A DNA stretch of 64,000 bases, from positions 806,001 to 870,000 of the forward strand of contig NZ_LR215979.1 in NCBI RefSeq assembly GCF_900683735.1. The letters run 5' to 3'. Positions within the stretch are counted from its first letter, which is position 1, and the number at the start of each line of letters is the position of its first letter. Under the pieces are notes generated by a model. That model was not told the origin of the DNA. It was given only the letters and a program-made list of their open reading frames with translations, and did no database searches. This stretch comes from Fusobacterium ulcerans ATCC 49185 (GTDB taxonomy: Bacteria; Fusobacteriota; Fusobacteriia; Fusobacteriales; Fusobacteriaceae). A program made the position numbers and the translations under genes. Positions 30,054 through 37,917 of this stretch are shown here, one piece after another.

Positions 30054-30748
30054 TTAATTTCCTCCTTCTCAAGCTTCTTTCTGCTCAATGTAAGTGAAAT
30101 AAGTATAGCTATCATTGATGGAATGATAAAATTTTCCATTCCAAATACAAGAAGACATGCAATAGAAGCTAAAACTCCTATTATAGCTGGAAGATGATCT
30201 TTTTGAGAATCCCATTGACTAAGGAATATAACAACAAAAAGAGCAGTCATTACAAAATCTATTCCTTTTGTATTAAAATTTATAAAGGAACCTAAGATTC
30301 CCCCTAAAGTAGCTCCAGATACCCAATAAGCATAATTTAAAAGAGTAACAAAAAACATAAACCACCCTTTATCTATTTCTTCAGGAATATCTGCAGTACA
30401 ATTAATGGAAAAGGATTCATCACACATTCCAAATATTAAGTACAGTTTCTTCTTTCCAGTTCCTCTGTATTTTTCCAACATAGATACTCCATAAAAAAGA
30501 TGTCTTGCATTAACCATAACAGCTAATAAAAAAGCATTTAGTGGATCAAAAACTGATACTAAAAGATTAGCAGTTATAAATTCCATAGATCCTGCAAAGA
30601 TAGTAAGGCTCATAAGCATTGGATAAACAAAAGAAAACCCCATCTTATTCATATATATTCCATAGGCTAATCCCAGAAATGTAAAACCAGCACAAATAGG
30701 AATCGTATGTGGAAAAGCGGCTTTGAATGCTTTTGATTTTGTGTTCAT
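30050..30748 (-). CDS. azlC: Branched-chain amino acid exporter large subunit AzlC
   Basis: The 232-residue inner-membrane protein of the AzlC/LIV-E family starts at the ATG at 30748, just behind an AGGGGGA ribosome site. The frame is open 30 codons further upstream, but that extension has no ribosome site and looks non-coding. Family features are [45 protein letters not shown] and DESFSINCT. It exports branched-chain amino acids together with AzlD, plausible for an amino-acid fermenter with internal excess. The operon ends at the terminator near 29700. Confidence 0.92.
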
Positions 30749-30944
30749 TTTATTCCCCCTTTTGTATTTAAATTGTGATATTAAAAAATTAATGTATTTT
30801 CTTATTATACCTAAATTACGGATTAAAGACAATACCAAATTTAAAAAAAACTTCTTTCCAATTTAGAGGAAAAAAGGATTAGAACAAAAACAGTAAATAT
30901 GATAAACTTAATCTATATAAGATATGGATTCAGGAGGGAAAGCA

Positions 30945-32336
30945 ATGAAGAAAAAAGTTAAAACAACAGGTAATCCACTACTAAAAAAGGCTCTATTTTT
31001 ATTTTTTTTCAGCCTTTTGTTACAGATTCCTCTTATGTTTGTAAATGGAGTAGTCCATGAGAGAAATTATCTTTATGATTCTACTATTAAAAATATAGGA
31101 AGAGAATGGGGAGAAACACAGACAATAGCAGGACCTGTTATTGTAGTTCCTTATACAGAGGAATATTATGAGAGAGAATATACAGTAGACAAGCAGGGAA
31201 AAGAAATCGAAATTGTTAAAAGTAAAAAGAGAAAAAATAGTTTAGTGGTTCTGCCTGAAAAATTAGATGTTAATGTTGATTTGAAAGAAGAAGTGAGAAA
31301 AAGAGGTATATATAAATCTATGGTGTATACTGGGGAATTAAACATGAAAGGAAATTTTTCTAAAGTGTTGTCAAATATTCCAGAAAATGCAGTTATAGAC
31401 TACAATGAAGTAAGTATATCTTTAGGAATAACAGATATAAAAGCTCTTCTTAAAATAGATAAATTTAATTTTAATGGCAAAGAGATAGAATTAGAATCAG
31501 GAACTGGATTGGGAAAACCATTTCAGATATCTAAAGGAATTTCGGGAAAACTGGGAATAAAAAATGAAGAATTAGGAGAAATTCCATTTGATATAGAATT
31601 AGTGTTTAGAGGTAGTGAAGGGATAACTCTTTTACCAATGGGAAAAGACAATAGCTTCTTTATAAAATCAGCATGGGAAAATCCAAGCTTTTATGGAATG
31701 CTTCCTAGAGAAAGAGTTATAAATGAAAATGGATTTACAGCAAATTGGAATATATCCCATCTTACAAGAAATTATAAGCAATACTTTTTTGCAAGTGAAA
31801 GTAATAAAATAGATTTATCAGAGGCACAAGCAGGAGTGGCTTTATATAATGGAATAACTCACTACAGACAGGTAATAAGAGCAGCTAAGTATGGAGTTTT
31901 ATTTATAATGATGAGCTTATTGGCTGTATACCTTTTTGAAATATCAGGGAAGAAAGAAACTCATTATGTTCAGTATGGAATTGTAGGATTTTCTTTAGTT
32001 ATGTTCTACTTGCTGCTTTTATCACTGGCAGAACATATAAGTTTTATAACTGCATATGGAATATCAGCAGCAGCAGTTATAGTACCAGTATCTTTGTATA
32101 TAACTAGTGTTACCAAAAATATTAAATATGGATTGGGGATGTTTGTTCTCCTTATAGGTATATATTCTATATTGTTCTCAATTTTAAAAATGGAAGATTA
32201 TGCACTTCTTACAGGAACACTTCTAATTATGGGAGTATTGTATCTTCTGATGTATGTAACTAAAAATATGGAAATAGTAAGTAAAAAAGTTCCAGATACA
32301 GAAGAAATTGAGAACGAGGAACAGGTGAAAAAATGA
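30945..32336 (+). CDS. creD: CreD-like inner-membrane protein
   Basis: The 463-residue CreD/CetD-family protein has an N-terminal helix (about 15-32), a large extracytoplasmic domain (about 35-305; signatures AGPVIVVPYTEEYYE and LVVLPEKLDVNVDL), and a cluster of about six helices from about 310 to 440. In enterobacteria creD belongs to the CreBC regulon and affects envelope integrity and colicin E2 tolerance. No creBC genes are present here. AGGAGGG at 30932 sets the start at 30945 rather than the ATG at 30924. The stop overlaps the DUF2339 gene by 4 bases. Confidence 0.88.
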   Translation: MKKKVKTTGNPLLKKALFLFFFSLLLQIPLMFVNGVVHERNYLYDSTIKNIGREWGETQTIAGPVIVVPYTEEYYEREYTVDKQGKEIEIVKSKKRKNSLVVLPEKLDVNVDLKEEVRKRGIYKSMVYTGELNMKGNFSKVLSNIPENAVIDYNEVSISLGITDIKALLKIDKFNFNGKEIELESGTGLGKPFQISKGISGKLGIKNEELGEIPFDIELVFRGSEGITLLPMGKDNSFFIKSAWENPSFYGMLPRERVINENGFTANWNISHLTRNYKQYFFASESNKIDLSEAQAGVALYNGITHYRQVIRAAKYGVLFIMMSLLAVYLFEISGKKETHYVQYGIVGFSLVMFYLLLLSLAEHISFITAYGISAAAVIVPVSLYITSVTKNIKYGLGMFVLLIGIYSILFSILKMEDYALLTGTLLIMGVLYLLMYVTKNMEIVSKKVPDTEEIENEEQVKK

Positions 32337-34849
32337 TAGATAAGAAAAAAGAGCTTGAACTTTTGGAGGCAAAATATCAAGAAATAAAAAAACTTAATTC
32401 AGAAGCTGAATCTATAATATCAAGTATAAAAAATGATGCAGATATCAATAGAGAAACTCAGCTTTTAGAAGAAAAGGAAAAACTTGAGAAAACTTTAAAA
32501 GAAATTAAAGATGAATTACAGAAAAAGATAAAAGAGATAGAAGATTTAAAGAATTCAAATATAGTGCTTTTAGAAGAATTAAGGGAAAGTAAAAGGTTAA
32601 GAAGAGAAAAAGAGATAAATAAATTTCAAGTAATGGCTGCTAAAAGGGTAAAAATAGACCTTGAAGACAGAATAATAAGCAGGCTTAATAATTTTAGGAA
32701 AGAATTATATAAAAAAATTAATATTCAAGATAAAGAACTGATGAAAGATATGTCTAAAGAATCTCATGAGTTGAGAGCTGAACTAAAAGCAGTAGCTGAA
32801 AAAGCAGATGTATTTATTGAAAATTCAAAGAAGAAAGCTTTAGAAGCTGGAATAGCTTTAGGAGAAGAGAGTTCTGTATTTCATAGTGAAATACAGAAAG
32901 AATACGACTTAAAAGAAGATAAATATCTTTTTGAAAAAGAGAAAAAAAACTTTGTTCTGGAAAAACTTATTGGATTAAAAGGATTTAATTTTTTAGGAAT
33001 AATATCAATTTTTTTAGGAATATTTTTAGTTTTTAAAACACAGTTTAGAGACTTCTTTAATAATGATTATATCAAAAGTTCAGGATCATATCTCTTAGGA
33101 ATTATTTTCCTTTTTGCAGGTGAGAGATTATATCAAAAGAACAAAAAACATTTTGCTGTAGGATTGATAGGTGGGGGAATAGGAATACTATATATAACTA
33201 CCTTGCTATCAACAATGTATCTTGGACTGTTTTCTATGATGCTGGGGCTTTTTATCTCAGTTATTTTAACAGGATTAGTAGTTATATTAGCATTAAGATA
33301 TAGTTCACAAATTATAGGAATATTAGCTTTAATAGGGGGATATTTGCCATATGGAGCTTATATTTATTATGAAGGTGGAATTACAAAAATATACTATCTG
33401 ATAGCTTATTCTCTGATACTTCAGGGAATAGTTTTAGGAGTGTCTTGGAAAAAAGACTGGTTATACAGTAAAATAATTGGGTTTGTAATAGGTTCAACAA
33501 ATATGGGAGGAATAGTATTTTATCTGTCAAGAAATATGGGAGATAAACTTACTGCATTTTTCTATATTGTAATATTTACAACAGCATATAGCTTTATATT
33601 TCTTAATTCTCACAGAAAAGAGAACAGAGAAAGTAATGTTATAGACTATATACTTCTCAGTCTTAACCTTATTGTGAAATTTTCTTTGATATATAGTTTG
33701 TCAGATGGAACAACACCAAACTGGATGAAAGCTGGATTAGTAGCAGGAGTAGGTATTATATATGGATTCTTTGGGGATAAACTTAAAGAAAACAGAGTAT
33801 CCAAAATTTTCTATGTAATAGCTTTAGGATGTTTCATAGTGATAATTCCTGTAATACTTTCTAAAGAATACATAGTGCTAGCATGGGGACTGGAAGCAGT
33901 GTTCTTATACTTTATGGCCTCAAAATATAAAAATAAAGAGATAGAATATGGAGCAGTTTTTATATATTTAATAACTCTTTTAACAAATTTCTTTATAAGA
34001 GAGGAAAAATATTATCTTGTGTACATACAGGATATTTTGATAATTTCACTTTCTTTTGTAGTTTATTTTATTGTGAAGGAAAAAAGTTATAACAAAACTA
34101 TTAAAAGTCTGATGGCTCCATTTAAGTATCTTATATTCTTATACTCAATATTTTTCATCAATAATATAATTTTTCTAAATATAAAAAAAATACCAGGAAG
34201 ATATTATACTAGAGAGATGTTTGGAGTTTTAATAGCAGTTTTAATTGTAAATATTTTGTTGAGAACTGTAACTTATAAGGTTAAAGAACTTCAGGATAGA
34301 TTTAGTCTGGTATTTTTAACAATAATAGAGATATTTTCAATATTGATAATAAATATGATAAATGTATTTGGATATGTGAAATATGAGAATGGAAAAGAAA
34401 AAATCTTACTAATAATTTTCATTTTAGCAGCAAATATATATTTATTCCTCTTTGGAAGAAAAGACATTCATTTTACTTTATTTAAAACTAATGAGAAAAA
34501 AGTTCCATGGATAATAGGAGAATCAATATATATAATCGTAGTTTCATATGTACTAATGAATAATGTACTTTATATAGAAGGAGCAAATCTGGTAATAAAT
34601 ATTGTAGGACTGCTTATGTGTGGATATCTCGTTTGGAAAGGATTCAGAACACCTAATAGAAATATAAGAAGGGTAGGACTTGGAATAGGAATATTCTTTG
34701 TTTTAAAAAGTTTCTTTATAGATTTTATTTCTTTCAGCAGTACATACAAACTTCTTGCATATTTCAGTATGGGAGTTATATTAATAGGAACTTCTTATAT
34801 CTATCAAACAGCTCTTAAAAAATTAGAAAAGGAGGAAAAAGGTGAATAG
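32333..34849 (+). CDS. DUF2339 polytopic membrane protein with N-terminal coiled coil
   Basis: The 838-residue protein opens with a charged coiled coil (about 1-180). About twenty closely packed hydrophobic segments follow (about 215-825), including GFNFLGIISIFLGIFLVFKT, GGGIGILYITTLLSTMYLG and ALRYSSQIIGILALIGGYLP, which are typical of DUF2339. The function is unknown; members are often next to DUF3999 genes, as here. The start overlaps the creD stop and the end overlaps the DUF3999 start by 8 bases, so the three products are translationally coupled and probably act together at the inner membrane. Confidence 0.83.
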   Translation: MIDKKKELELLEAKYQEIKKLNSEAESIISSIKNDADINRETQLLEEKEKLEKTLKEIKDELQKKIKEIEDLKNSNIVLLEELRESKRLRREKEINKFQVMAAKRVKIDLEDRIISRLNNFRKELYKKINIQDKELMKDMSKESHELRAELKAVAEKADVFIENSKKKALEAGIALGEESSVFHSEIQKEYDLKEDKYLFEKEKKNFVLEKLIGLKGFNFLGIISIFLGIFLVFKTQFRDFFNNDYIKSSGSYLLGIIFLFAGERLYQKNKKHFAVGLIGGGIGILYITTLLSTMYLGLFSMMLGLFISVILTGLVVILALRYSSQIIGILALIGGYLPYGAYIYYEGGITKIYYLIAYSLILQGIVLGVSWKKDWLYSKIIGFVIGSTNMGGIVFYLSRNMGDKLTAFFYIVIFTTAYSFIFLNSHRKENRESNVIDYILLSLNLIVKFSLIYSLSDGTTPNWMKAGLVAGVGIIYGFFGDKLKENRVSKIFYVIALGCFIVIIPVILSKEYIVLAWGLEAVFLYFMASKYKNKEIEYGAVFIYLITLLTNFFIREEKYYLVYIQDILIISLSFVVYFIVKEKSYNKTIKSLMAPFKYLIFLYSIFFINNIIFLNIKKIPGRYYTREMFGVLIAVLIVNILLRTVTYKVKELQDRFSLVFLTIIEIFSILIINMINVFGYVKYENGKEKILLIIFILAANIYLFLFGRKDIHFTLFKTNEKKVPWIIGESIYIIVVSYVLMNNVLYIEGANLVINIVGLLMCGYLVWKGFRTPNRNIRRVGLGIGIFFVLKSFFIDFISFSSTYKLLAYFSMGVILIGTSYIYQTALKKLEKEEKGE

Positions 34850-35999
34850 AATAATATCAATACTATTATTTATAATATCTTTGCAATCTTTTTCTTATGA
34901 TTATTTTAAAGAGATAGAAGTAAATGGAAATAGTAAATATAAAGAATTTTATATAACAGAGGACATTTACTCTAAAAGCAAAAATGATTTGGGAGATATA
35001 AGGATACTAGATGATAATGGACAGGAAATACCTTATGTAATTGAAAAAAAAGATGCTGGATATAATAATATAGAGAGGATAATTTCAGTAGGAAATATAG
35101 TTTCAGAAACAGCTAAAGAAGAAAGAATGGAAACAGTTTTTAAATTTTCTCCTAAAACTGAGTTAGATGATGTATTTGGAAATAGAATAGAGATAATACC
35201 TAAAAGGAATTTTTATTTTGAATATGAATTGCTAGGAAGTAATAATGGAAAAAATTGGGAGTATATAACTTATGGAGAAATATATAAAACTCCAGACAGA
35301 GAAAATTTACTAATAGATTTTCCAGAAGAAAAATATACATATTATAAATTGGTAACTGATTTGAATAAAGAAAGTAATTTTAAAGGTGCAGTTCTTAAAT
35401 TTTATGGAAGTGAAAAAAAGGAAACAGAAACTATTTTACTAAAATTAGAATATCAATCAGAGGAAAAGGATAAAACCAGTATAATTACTATTGAAACTAA
35501 CAATCTTCCTATACATAAAATATATTTAAAAGCCAGTGGTGAATTTAAAAGAAATTATTCAATCGGAAACAGGGATTATTATAGAACTGGAACTATTTTC
35601 AAAGTTGGCGACAAAGAAAATATGCAGATAGATTTCAGAAGAATATCAAGATCAGAACAATTGATACTAGAGATAAAAAATGGAGATAATAAACCTCTTG
35701 TAATAACTGAAATTCAAGGAGAATATATTCCTGCTAAGATAATGTTTAAAGCAGAAGAAAATGGCAAATATAAAATAACTTTTGGAAATGAAAACTTGTA
35801 TAAACCAAAGTATGATTTGGAAGAGTTCAGCAGTATGATAAAAGACAGAAATTTAGTTATAGCTGGGAAAATAAATACAGTTGAAAAAGAAGCAGTTCAA
35901 GAATCAAAAGATATGAGTATGTATTACAATATTTTTATTGGATTGATTGTACTTTTACTAAGTAGTTTTATGATAAAAAAAATAAGCAAAAAAAAATAA
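34842..35999 (+). CDS. DUF3999 family exported membrane-anchored protein
   Basis: The 385-residue protein has a signal peptide (NRIISILLFIISLQSFSYDY), a long extracytoplasmic beta-rich region (about 20-360; NGQEIPYVIEKKDAG, RIISVGNI), and a C-terminal helix (about 362-380) followed by a Lys-rich tail. The layout and gene order match DUF3999 proteins that partner DUF2339. The start is GTG at 34842 with GGAGG at 34831-34835. Its function is unknown. A periplasmic partner to the DUF2339 membrane protein is the simplest reading. Confidence 0.78.
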   Translation: MNRIISILLFIISLQSFSYDYFKEIEVNGNSKYKEFYITEDIYSKSKNDLGDIRILDDNGQEIPYVIEKKDAGYNNIERIISVGNIVSETAKEERMETVFKFSPKTELDDVFGNRIEIIPKRNFYFEYELLGSNNGKNWEYITYGEIYKTPDRENLLIDFPEEKYTYYKLVTDLNKESNFKGAVLKFYGSEKKETETILLKLEYQSEEKDKTSIITIETNNLPIHKIYLKASGEFKRNYSIGNRDYYRTGTIFKVGDKENMQIDFRRISRSEQLILEIKNGDNKPLVITEIQGEYIPAKIMFKAEENGKYKITFGNENLYKPKYDLEEFSSMIKDRNLVIAGKINTVEKEAVQESKDMSMYYNIFIGLIVLLLSSFMIKKISKKK

Positions 36000-36010
36000 T
36001 TTACATTTGA

Positions 36011-36052
36011 AACATGCTGTTTTTATTGAGAAAAGAGCATATTTCATTTTTA
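36011..36052 (+). terminator. Weak terminator after DUF3999 gene
   Basis: ATGCTGTTTT/AAAAGAGCAT (36014-36023, 36031-36040; one mismatch) is followed by ATTTCATTTTT. Confidence 0.45.
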
Positions 36053-36067
36053 GAACAAAAATAAGAC

Positions 36068-36096
36068 TTACAATTTCTTAAAAAGTATAGTATAAT
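36068..36096 (+). promoter_or_regulatory. Promoter of the DEAD-box helicase gene
   Basis: TTACAA (36068-36073), a 17-base spacer and TATAAT (36091-36096). This start would give a leader of about 230 bases. Confidence 0.65.
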
Positions 36097-36102
36097 ATAT
36101 TC

Positions 36103-36333
36103 TTAGGTAGTAAACATAGGATTCTTTAATAAGATAGATATTTATTTAAATGTATTTTGTTACAACACACCGTTAAAAATATCTTTAAAAAGAACAAGAG
36201 GATTCCTATAATGCTACAAAACATTTTTTGTTGTAGAACACGAGGGAAAGTAACTCTGATTGTTTTTAAATGCATATGAGATTTTTTAGTGTGGTATGAT
36301 GAAATAAAATAATTTAAATAAAGGACGTGAAGA
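36103..36333 (+). promoter_or_regulatory. Long 5' leader of the DEAD-box helicase mRNA
   Basis: About 230 bases separate the likely transcription start from the ATG. A stem CTACAA/TTGTAG (36212-36235) flanks a T-rich loop, and no convincing open reading frame fills the leader. Long structured leaders are typical of cold-shock RNA helicase genes. This, with the promoter and weak terminator, accounts for the 334-base gap. Confidence 0.45.
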
Positions 36334-37917
36334 ATGGAAAAATTAGAAGAATTCAAAAAATTGGGATTGGGAGAGAAAACAATAAAGGCTCTCTCAAAAA
36401 AAGGGTATGAAAAACCAACACCTATACAAGCTTTAACTATACCAGCATTACTAGATGGAGATAAGGATATAATAGGACAGGCACAAACAGGAACTGGTAA
36501 AACAGCTGCTTTCTCTTTACCAATATTAGAAAGATTTGAACCTGGAAAAGTGGTACAAGCTATTGTTTTAGCTCCTACTAGAGAACTTGCTATCCAAGTT
36601 GCTGAAGAAATGAACAGTCTTGCAAATGGTAAAAAAATAAGAATAACTCCTGTATATGGAGGACAATCAATAGAATTCCAAATCAGACAACTGAAAAAAG
36701 GAACTGACATAATTGTTGGAACTCCAGGAAGAGTAATGGATCTGATGGACAGAAAACTTATAAAATTAGATAATCTTAAATATTTTATATTAGATGAAGC
36801 TGATGAAATGCTTAATATGGGATTTTTAGAAGATGTAGAGAAAATTCTTGAATCTACAAATGATGATAAAAGAATGCTTTTCTTCTCTGCTACAATGCCA
36901 AATGAAATATTAAAAGTTGCTAAAAAACATATGAGAGATTATGAAGTTTTAGCAGTAAAAACTAGAGAGCTTACAACTGATCTTACTGATCAAATTTATT
37001 TTGAAGTACATGAAAGAGATAAATTTGAAGCTCTATGCAGAATAATAGATCTTACTAAAGATTTCTATGGAATAGTTTTCTGCAGAACTAAAAATGATGT
37101 AAATGATGTAGTTGGAAAATTAAATGACAGAGGATATGATGCTGAAGGTCTTCATGGAGATATCAGTCAAAACTATAGAGAAGTAACTTTAAAAAGATTT
37201 AAAGCTAAAAAAATAAATGTATTGGTAGCAACAGATGTAGCTGCAAGGGGAATAGATGTAAATGATCTTTCTCATGTAATCAATTATTCCATACCACAGG
37301 AAGCTGAGAGTTATGTACATAGAATTGGAAGAACTGGAAGAGCTGGTAAAGAAGGAACTGCTATAACATTTATCACTCCTCAGGAATATAGAAGACTTCT
37401 TCAAATTCAAAAAATTGTAAAAACTGAAATCAGAAAAGAAAGAGTTCCAGGAGTAAAAGATGTAATTCAAGCTAAAAAATTTAGATTAATAGAAGAATTA
37501 AATCATATACTTGCTGAAAATAATTTTGATAATTTCAAAGACCTTTCAAGAGAACTTTTAAATGGGGAAGATGCTATAGATATTGTAGCTGCTTTAATTA
37601 AACATTCATATGAAGATGTACTTGATGAAAGCAATTACAATGAGATAAATAATAGTGCTCCATTAGAAAAAACTGGTAAAGTAAGACTATTTGTTGCTTT
37701 AGGAAGAAAAAATGAAATGACTCCTAAGAAATTAGTAGAAATGGTAACTAGCAAAACTAAAGTTGATGAAAGAAAATTAAAGAATGTTGAAGTATATGAA
37801 AACTTCTCTTTCTTATCTGTTCCTTTCCAAGAAGCAGAAGAAATTATTGAAATATTCAAGCAAGATAAAAAAGGAAGAAAACCTTTAATAGAAAAAGCTA
37901 AAGAAAAGAAACAATAA
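36334..37917 (+). CDS. deaD: DEAD-box ATP-dependent RNA helicase (DeaD/CsdA-like)
   Basis: This 527-residue RNA helicase unwinds RNA duplexes in ribosome assembly or mRNA decay. Motifs are the Q motif PTPIQ (28-32), Walker A AQTGTGKT (50-57), PTRELA, DEAD at 154-157 (LDEADEML), SATMP, and in the second RecA domain LVATDVAARGIDV and YVHRIGRTGRAGK. The C terminus (about 445-510, LFVALGRKNEMTPKKLV) is the DbpA-type RNA-binding domain found in DeaD/CsdA. The protein lacks the long basic tail of E. coli DeaD. It has its own promoter and a terminator. Confidence 0.93.
   Translation: MEKLEEFKKLGLGEKTIKALSKKGYEKPTPIQALTIPALLDGDKDIIGQAQTGTGKTAAFSLPILERFEPGKVVQAIVLAPTRELAIQVAEEMNSLANGKKIRITPVYGGQSIEFQIRQLKKGTDIIVGTPGRVMDLMDRKLIKLDNLKYFILDEADEMLNMGFLEDVEKILESTNDDKRMLFFSATMPNEILKVAKKHMRDYEVLAVKTRELTTDLTDQIYFEVHERDKFEALCRIIDLTKDFYGIVFCRTKNDVNDVVGKLNDRGYDAEGLHGDISQNYREVTLKRFKAKKINVLVATDVAARGIDVNDLSHVINYSIPQEAESYVHRIGRTGRAGKEGTAITFITPQEYRRLLQIQKIVKTEIRKERVPGVKDVIQAKKFRLIEELNHILAENNFDNFKDLSRELLNGEDAIDIVAALIKHSYEDVLDESNYNEINNSAPLEKTGKVRLFVALGRKNEMTPKKLVEMVTSKTKVDERKLKNVEVYENFSFLSVPFQEAEEIIEIFKQDKKGRKPLIEKAKEKKQ

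Follow-up and report, generated by a model that had tools for sequence, protein, structure and literature searches.

A creD-led locus of Fusobacterium ulcerans related to the Arc3 membrane-protection pair

Three overlapping genes of Fusobacterium ulcerans ATCC 49185 most likely encode an envelope module against lysophospholipid damage. The products of the second and third match DUF2339 and DUF3999, the families that define homologues of Arc3A and Arc3B, and the first encodes CreD; we put at roughly 0.55 the probability that these genes form an Arc3 membrane-protection module whose leading gene, creD, was recruited to it. The arc3 part is of a known kind, and the creD coupling is a lineage-limited variant. 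The genes lie in the window, by which we mean the whole stretch of 64,000 nucleotides that was analyzed (positions 806,001 to 870,000 of contig NZ_LR215979.1), and all positions are counted from its first letter. The genome, a single contig of 3.84 Mb, encodes one CreD protein and one DUF2339 protein.

Gene layout, overlaps, and selection

The features of the locus are as follows.

30749-30944, no strand: 196-base gap between the divergent azlC and creD, the expected site of an operon promoter
30945-32336, + strand: creD (PF06123, NF008712), 463 aa from the ATG at 30945
32333-32336, + strand: creD/arc3A overlap, ATGA, 4 bases, identical in 4/4 genomes
32333-34849, + strand: arc3A-like gene (DUF2339, PF10101), 838 aa from the ATG at 32333
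34842-34849, + strand: arc3A/arc3B overlap, 8 bases, GTGAATAG in the window, preceded by the Shine-Dalgarno-like AGGAGG
34842-35999, + strand: arc3B-like gene (DUF3999, PF13163), 385 aa from the GTG at 34842

The original prediction described three envelope genes overlapping by 4 and 8 bases. Their frames are confirmed, and both overlaps are kept in all four genomes that have the creD-arc3A-arc3B block. The second overlap reads GTGAATAG in two of these genomes and GTGAATAA in two, terminating with TAG in two and with TAA in two, and AGGAGG is present in all four. The earliest ATG of the creD frame, at 30924, would give a product of 470 aa. All three genes are under selection, with dN/dS values of 0.05-0.11 across creD, arc3A, and arc3B, and of 0.05-0.09 for creD, in the three of the four block genomes that were compared. 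The three genes presumably share one message. In one of the four block genomes (G027, L024:8547-15219), arc3A and arc3B are interrupted by frame breaks, as are two adjoining genes; because these neighbors are also broken, sequencing error is likelier than decay.

Upstream of creD lie azlC and azlD, divergently oriented, and downstream of arc3B is a gene (36334-37917) that we take to encode a DEAD-box helicase. A promoter scan of 30740-36350 returned 42 sites, within about 1.4 sd of the 34.9 (sd 5.1) given by shuffled sequence, and we therefore claim no promoter for 30749-30944. The absence of creBC control genes, also part of the original prediction, holds for the window, where the E. coli CreA, CreB, and CreC queries found no match at E 1e-3. 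Proximity of creBC to creD is a habit of some proteobacteria and not a requirement of the family. PADLOC returned no match to the three products at E 0.01, so a phage-defense reading gains no support.

The DUF2339 protein and its Arc3A relatives

The second product matches PF10101 at 128 bits (cut-off 33.6), with residues 220-825 aligned to positions 7-657 of the 659-position profile, and in a profile comparison its family matches a Pseudomonas DUF2339 protein with probability 93. A simple hydropathy scan gives 16 membrane segments, the first at residue 215, where about twenty helices had been predicted. Residues 1-205 are 47% charged, and this N-terminal head is compatible with a putative coiled coil. 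The Arc3A sequence profile found no match among solved structures, and the viral contigs scanned for Arc3A and Arc3B held no relative of either.

The literature overturns the earlier statement that none of the three proteins has a known activity (PMC8926400, PMC12663445), with Arc3A and Arc3B published and an envelope phenotype described for CreD (PMC8926400, PMC4689548). In an eLife 2022 study, PF10101 proteins are named Arc3A and neighboring PF13163 proteins Arc3B, and the pair is described as widespread (PMC8926400). The P. aeruginosa proteins (PA5114-PA5113) co-immunoprecipitate, so that the candidate "uncharacterised complex" corresponds, in its DUF2339 and DUF3999 components, to a pair already reported (PMC8926400). 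Arc3A is given there as the individual factor that protects most against the phospholipase toxin Tle3, preventing build-up of lysophosphatidylethanolamine and monolysocardiolipin, while Arc3B is at most auxiliary, adding little defense in pairwise tests; the authors describe the mechanism of Arc3 as unknown (PMC8926400). Protection against lipase effectors is also reported in PMC12663445.

As in P. aeruginosa, the DUF2339 and DUF3999 genes here stand side by side and encode a large polytopic membrane protein and an exported, anchored partner. The loci differ in their company, with estA alongside arc3AB in P. aeruginosa and creD in front of it here, and in the count of Arc3A segments, 35 being predicted for P. 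aeruginosa against the 16 of our simple scan (PMC8926400). Control by Gac/Rsm is reported to be restricted to gammaproteobacteria (PMC8926400), and another control is therefore expected in this lineage. The E. coli lysophospholipid repair system LplT-Aas shares the damage product, lysophospholipid, but consists of different proteins, and Arc3 is reported to be independent of Aas in P. aeruginosa (PMC8926400).

A divergent Arc3B-like protein

Assignment of the third product passes through a partial match and a bridging family member. PF13163 is matched at 33.1 bits against a cut-off of 30, a weak hit that covers residues 24-72 only (49 residues); at E 0.01 the family is matched by 8/9 aligned Arc3B relatives. 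A neighbor of DUF2339 in Bacteroidota matches PF13163 over positions 124-423 and is also found by the Arc3B profile of this lineage (E 1.8e-21), and because it is matched by both, it links the lineage's Arc3B to PF13163. A second such Bacteroidota neighbor scores 27.7 bits with PF13163, below the cut-off, and direct comparison of the Arc3B profile with a full-length Janthinobacterium DUF3999 protein fails (probability 4). Against solved structures the sequence profile gave two weak matches (E 0.023 and 0.053) on which we do not draw, and a model of Arc3B folded alone was discarded at pLDDT 36.

The protein has a hydrophobic N-terminus, an exported part, and a single C-terminal membrane helix. 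For P. aeruginosa, PMC8926400 is inconsistent about the lipid anchor, assigning it once to Arc3A and once to Arc3B; we take Arc3B to be the protein meant, for which N-terminal lipidation and outer-membrane anchoring are predicted. In contrast, the window's Arc3B contains no cysteine and hence has no lipid anchor, and 7/9 aligned rows, the window's included, are cysteine-free. In a genome of another genus (G052, L039:5902-8751), arc3B is duplicated in tandem, and the second copy shares only ~27% identity with the arc3B of the window.

CreD

CreD is an inner-membrane protein, matching PF06123 at 441 bits (cut-off 23; residues 13-443 on positions 3-426 of 428) and the NCBI equivalog NF008712 at 431 (cut-off 275). 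It belongs to the same family as the CreD proteins of E. coli and S. maltophilia and is 29% identical to that of E. coli; unlike them, it is joined to arc3A, with no match to CreA, CreB, or CreC in the window. Its hydrophobic segments, by hydropathy, are a single one N-terminal and five C-terminal to a beta-rich domain of ~280 residues. CreD has mostly served as a reporter of CreBC and is known by its deletion phenotypes; to our knowledge, no molecular function has been established for it.

The predicted structure has a mean pLDDT of 89. VIA-align places residues 55-300 on 4g2a (lpg2210 of Legionella) with Z 13.2 and rmsd 3.5 over 182 aligned positions at 9% identity; among the other matches listed, the next has Z 10.2, followed by 8.7-9.3. 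Since 4g2a is annotated as a "putative nutrient binding protein," no CreD function follows from the match. A Foldseek search with the same model reached E values down to 1.9e-5 with TM-scores <0.25 among the 50 matches listed and was left unused, and the CreD sequence profile matched no solved structure.

Deletion of CreD in S. maltophilia weakens the envelope, with greater SDS sensitivity, NPN uptake, and outer-membrane permeability, and vancomycin sensitivity also follows (PMC4689548). The SDS and NPN phenotypes match a role under envelope damage. Elsewhere in the family, CreD frames of three loci (L056, L059, L077) run to 511-571 residues from the first ATG, which may reflect N-terminal extensions or merely early start codons.

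Distribution of the pair and the trio

Across the phylum (98 genomes), 22 genomes match DUF2339, 19 of them over cut-off, and 15 have CreD; four have both, a co-occurrence at chance level (one-sided Fisher p 0.32). Arc3B was found in 20/98, adjoining DUF2339 in 18 and with no DUF2339 match in two; arc3A and arc3B are thus adjacent in 18/18 genomes showing both, eight of which match by construction, having contributed rows to the Arc3B profile. In the remaining genome with DUF2339 over cut-off (G087), the contig ends at that gene. The trio occurs in 4/98 genomes, all of one genus, and creD directly precedes arc3A in every one. Rare co-occurrence of the three genes had been named as grounds for abandoning the idea of a complex: the pair is reported to be widespread (PMC8926400) and is adjacent in 18/18 genomes here, in favor of that idea, while the trio was seen as neighbors in a single genus, which speaks against it.

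Outside the phylum, the two families share genomes but were not seen side by side. Of 247 Bacteroidota genomes, 60 have DUF2339, 54 have CreD, and 18 have both, with adjacency in 0/18; the corresponding counts for 249 Pseudomonadota genomes are 49, 40, and 19, with adjacency in 0/19 and a nearest distance of about 70 kb. These 37 shared genomes were picked by eye and recounted, with distances judged by eye, and genes on separate contigs could in principle hide an adjacency. Sharing exceeds expectation in Pseudomonadota (19 against 7.9; one-sided Fisher p 1e-5), a value that ignores relatedness and genome size and comes from a sample whose center genome was chosen for having CreD; in Bacteroidota it is not clear (p 0.06).

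We also approached the question from creD. The fetched stretches of the best 80 of 584 creD loci, several of which end early at contig ends, held no clear DUF2339 match, nor did narrower profiles give one in an earlier search. Eight weak rows (E 3e-6 to 0.0096) were rejected, seven being the CreD frames themselves and one (L095) a protein unrelated by sequence. Recovery of 18 DUF2339 proteins is no independent control for this profile, because it was built with those 18. For 50 of the best 80 loci, 22/50 genomes match DUF2339, 21 over cut-off. In the literature, "DUF2339" and "CreD" were found together only in a Leptospira paper, where they appear in separate expression tables and, in the portions available, without a link, and neither "CreD" nor "Fusobacter" occurs in the main text of PMC8926400.

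History of the locus and creD in sister genomes

At the same site, the near relative G029 carries azlD, azlC, and the helicase gene with the creD and arc3 genes absent between them (L154), as if creD, arc3A, and arc3B were gained and lost together, and has its creD elsewhere (L028); the empty site is that of one genome. Among eight further helicase neighborhoods of the genus (L154-L161), azlC stands beside the helicase in L154 only, and the remaining seven carry different genes there. G052, from a different genus, has a helicase homologue preceded by arc3A, arc3B, and the additional arc3B-like gene, with no creD (L039). In genome G028 (L025:13255-14733), a gene for a 492-aa product lies between azlD and a ferritin-like gene; it is absent from the window and is perhaps an insertion element.

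Arc3A of the genus falls with the Arc3A of a different family (f4) and not with that of its own (support 97/99), in a tree that carries a warning of uneven composition; this placement points to transfer or differential loss. The CreDs of the four operons make up a single clade (97/99) beside the phylum's other CreDs, and among the latter fall a Campylobacter CreD and a contig labeled Mailhella. The Mailhella-labeled CreD (L044:49-1323) is 50% identical to the window's and groups inside the phylum's CreDs, the contig being either a case of transfer or mis-binned.

Eleven CreD genomes of the phylum lack an adjoining arc3, and nine of these were mapped. In 6/9 (L026, L027, L028, L031, L033, L034), creD lies in gene arrays that we take to be immunity-like; in 3/9 it lies outside them. 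The domain scan covered five of these arrays; the sixth, L034, was placed through its likeness to L031. A SUKH-like domain scores 28.7 bits (cut-off 25.4) in one array and 22.6 and 24, below cut-off, in two, and the arrays also hold DUF1963, DUF4241, DUF4253, DUF4274, DUF4299, DUF5713, DUF6630, and ankyrin repeats. DUF1963, DUF4241, DUF4253, and DUF4274 do not appear in the available portions of the 2012 polymorphic-toxin paper (PMC3482391), and the label therefore draws on the SUKH and ankyrin matches together with general background. CreD may be used as a defense gene in these sister genomes, a use that would fit a defense role here without showing one.

Proposed mechanism and competing explanations

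In the mechanism we propose, Arc3A in the inner membrane and exported Arc3B would limit lysophospholipids during phospholipase attack on the envelope; the likely means are binding or removal of these lipids or interference with the enzyme. The distant Arc3 proteins of this lineage would thus act as those of P. aeruginosa do, and CreD, whose translation from a shared message would be coupled to theirs, would act together with them by supporting the envelope under the same damage. An inner source of lysophospholipid could be patatin-type phospholipases, which were matched in 12/12 genomes of the genus whether or not arc3 is present, and so do not set arc3 genomes apart; the present genome has six such matches, one containing a stop. 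Our literature search found no experiment for this lineage. A stronger version, in which CreD is a working third Arc3 member that binds Arc3A and whose periplasmic beta-rich domain handles lipid or guards a membrane step, is conceivable, if doubtful.

Two other accounts deserve weighing against an Arc3 module that has recruited CreD. That creD is a passenger, having landed before arc3AB in one ancestor to be co-transcribed with no joint function, would sit well with a trio confined to four genomes of one genus, with the failure to find creD-DUF2339 neighbors elsewhere (best 80 of 584 loci; 37 shared genomes), and with the unrelated places of creD in sister genomes. We nonetheless hold it rather unlikely, given that the exact overlap with arc3A is kept in 4/4 genomes, that creD has dN/dS of 0.05-0.09 in three of them, although selection on creD alone would also be expected to give such values, and that the whole block is missing from one relative. 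Alternatively, the operon might stabilize the envelope generally, for example against bile and similar detergent-like conditions, and have no particular connection to phospholipase attack. Sensitization to SDS and vancomycin upon CreD loss (PMC4689548) and the published view that arc1A, arc3A, and aas probably contribute against further classes of effector as well (PMC12663445) lend this idea some weight, but Arc3 of P. aeruginosa is reported to act specifically against phospholipase toxins and to stand apart from general stress responses (PMC8926400), and we judge the general role unlikely.

Implications

If CreD does prove to be a working Arc3 member, it would gain a molecular role, and the presence of creD in the immunity-like arrays of sister genomes would become understandable as defense. 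The overlap of creD with arc3A offers, for both Arc3 and CreD, a concrete partner to test. More broadly, an Arc3 module led by creD would place membrane-damage defense in a lineage whose name is absent from the main text of PMC8926400.
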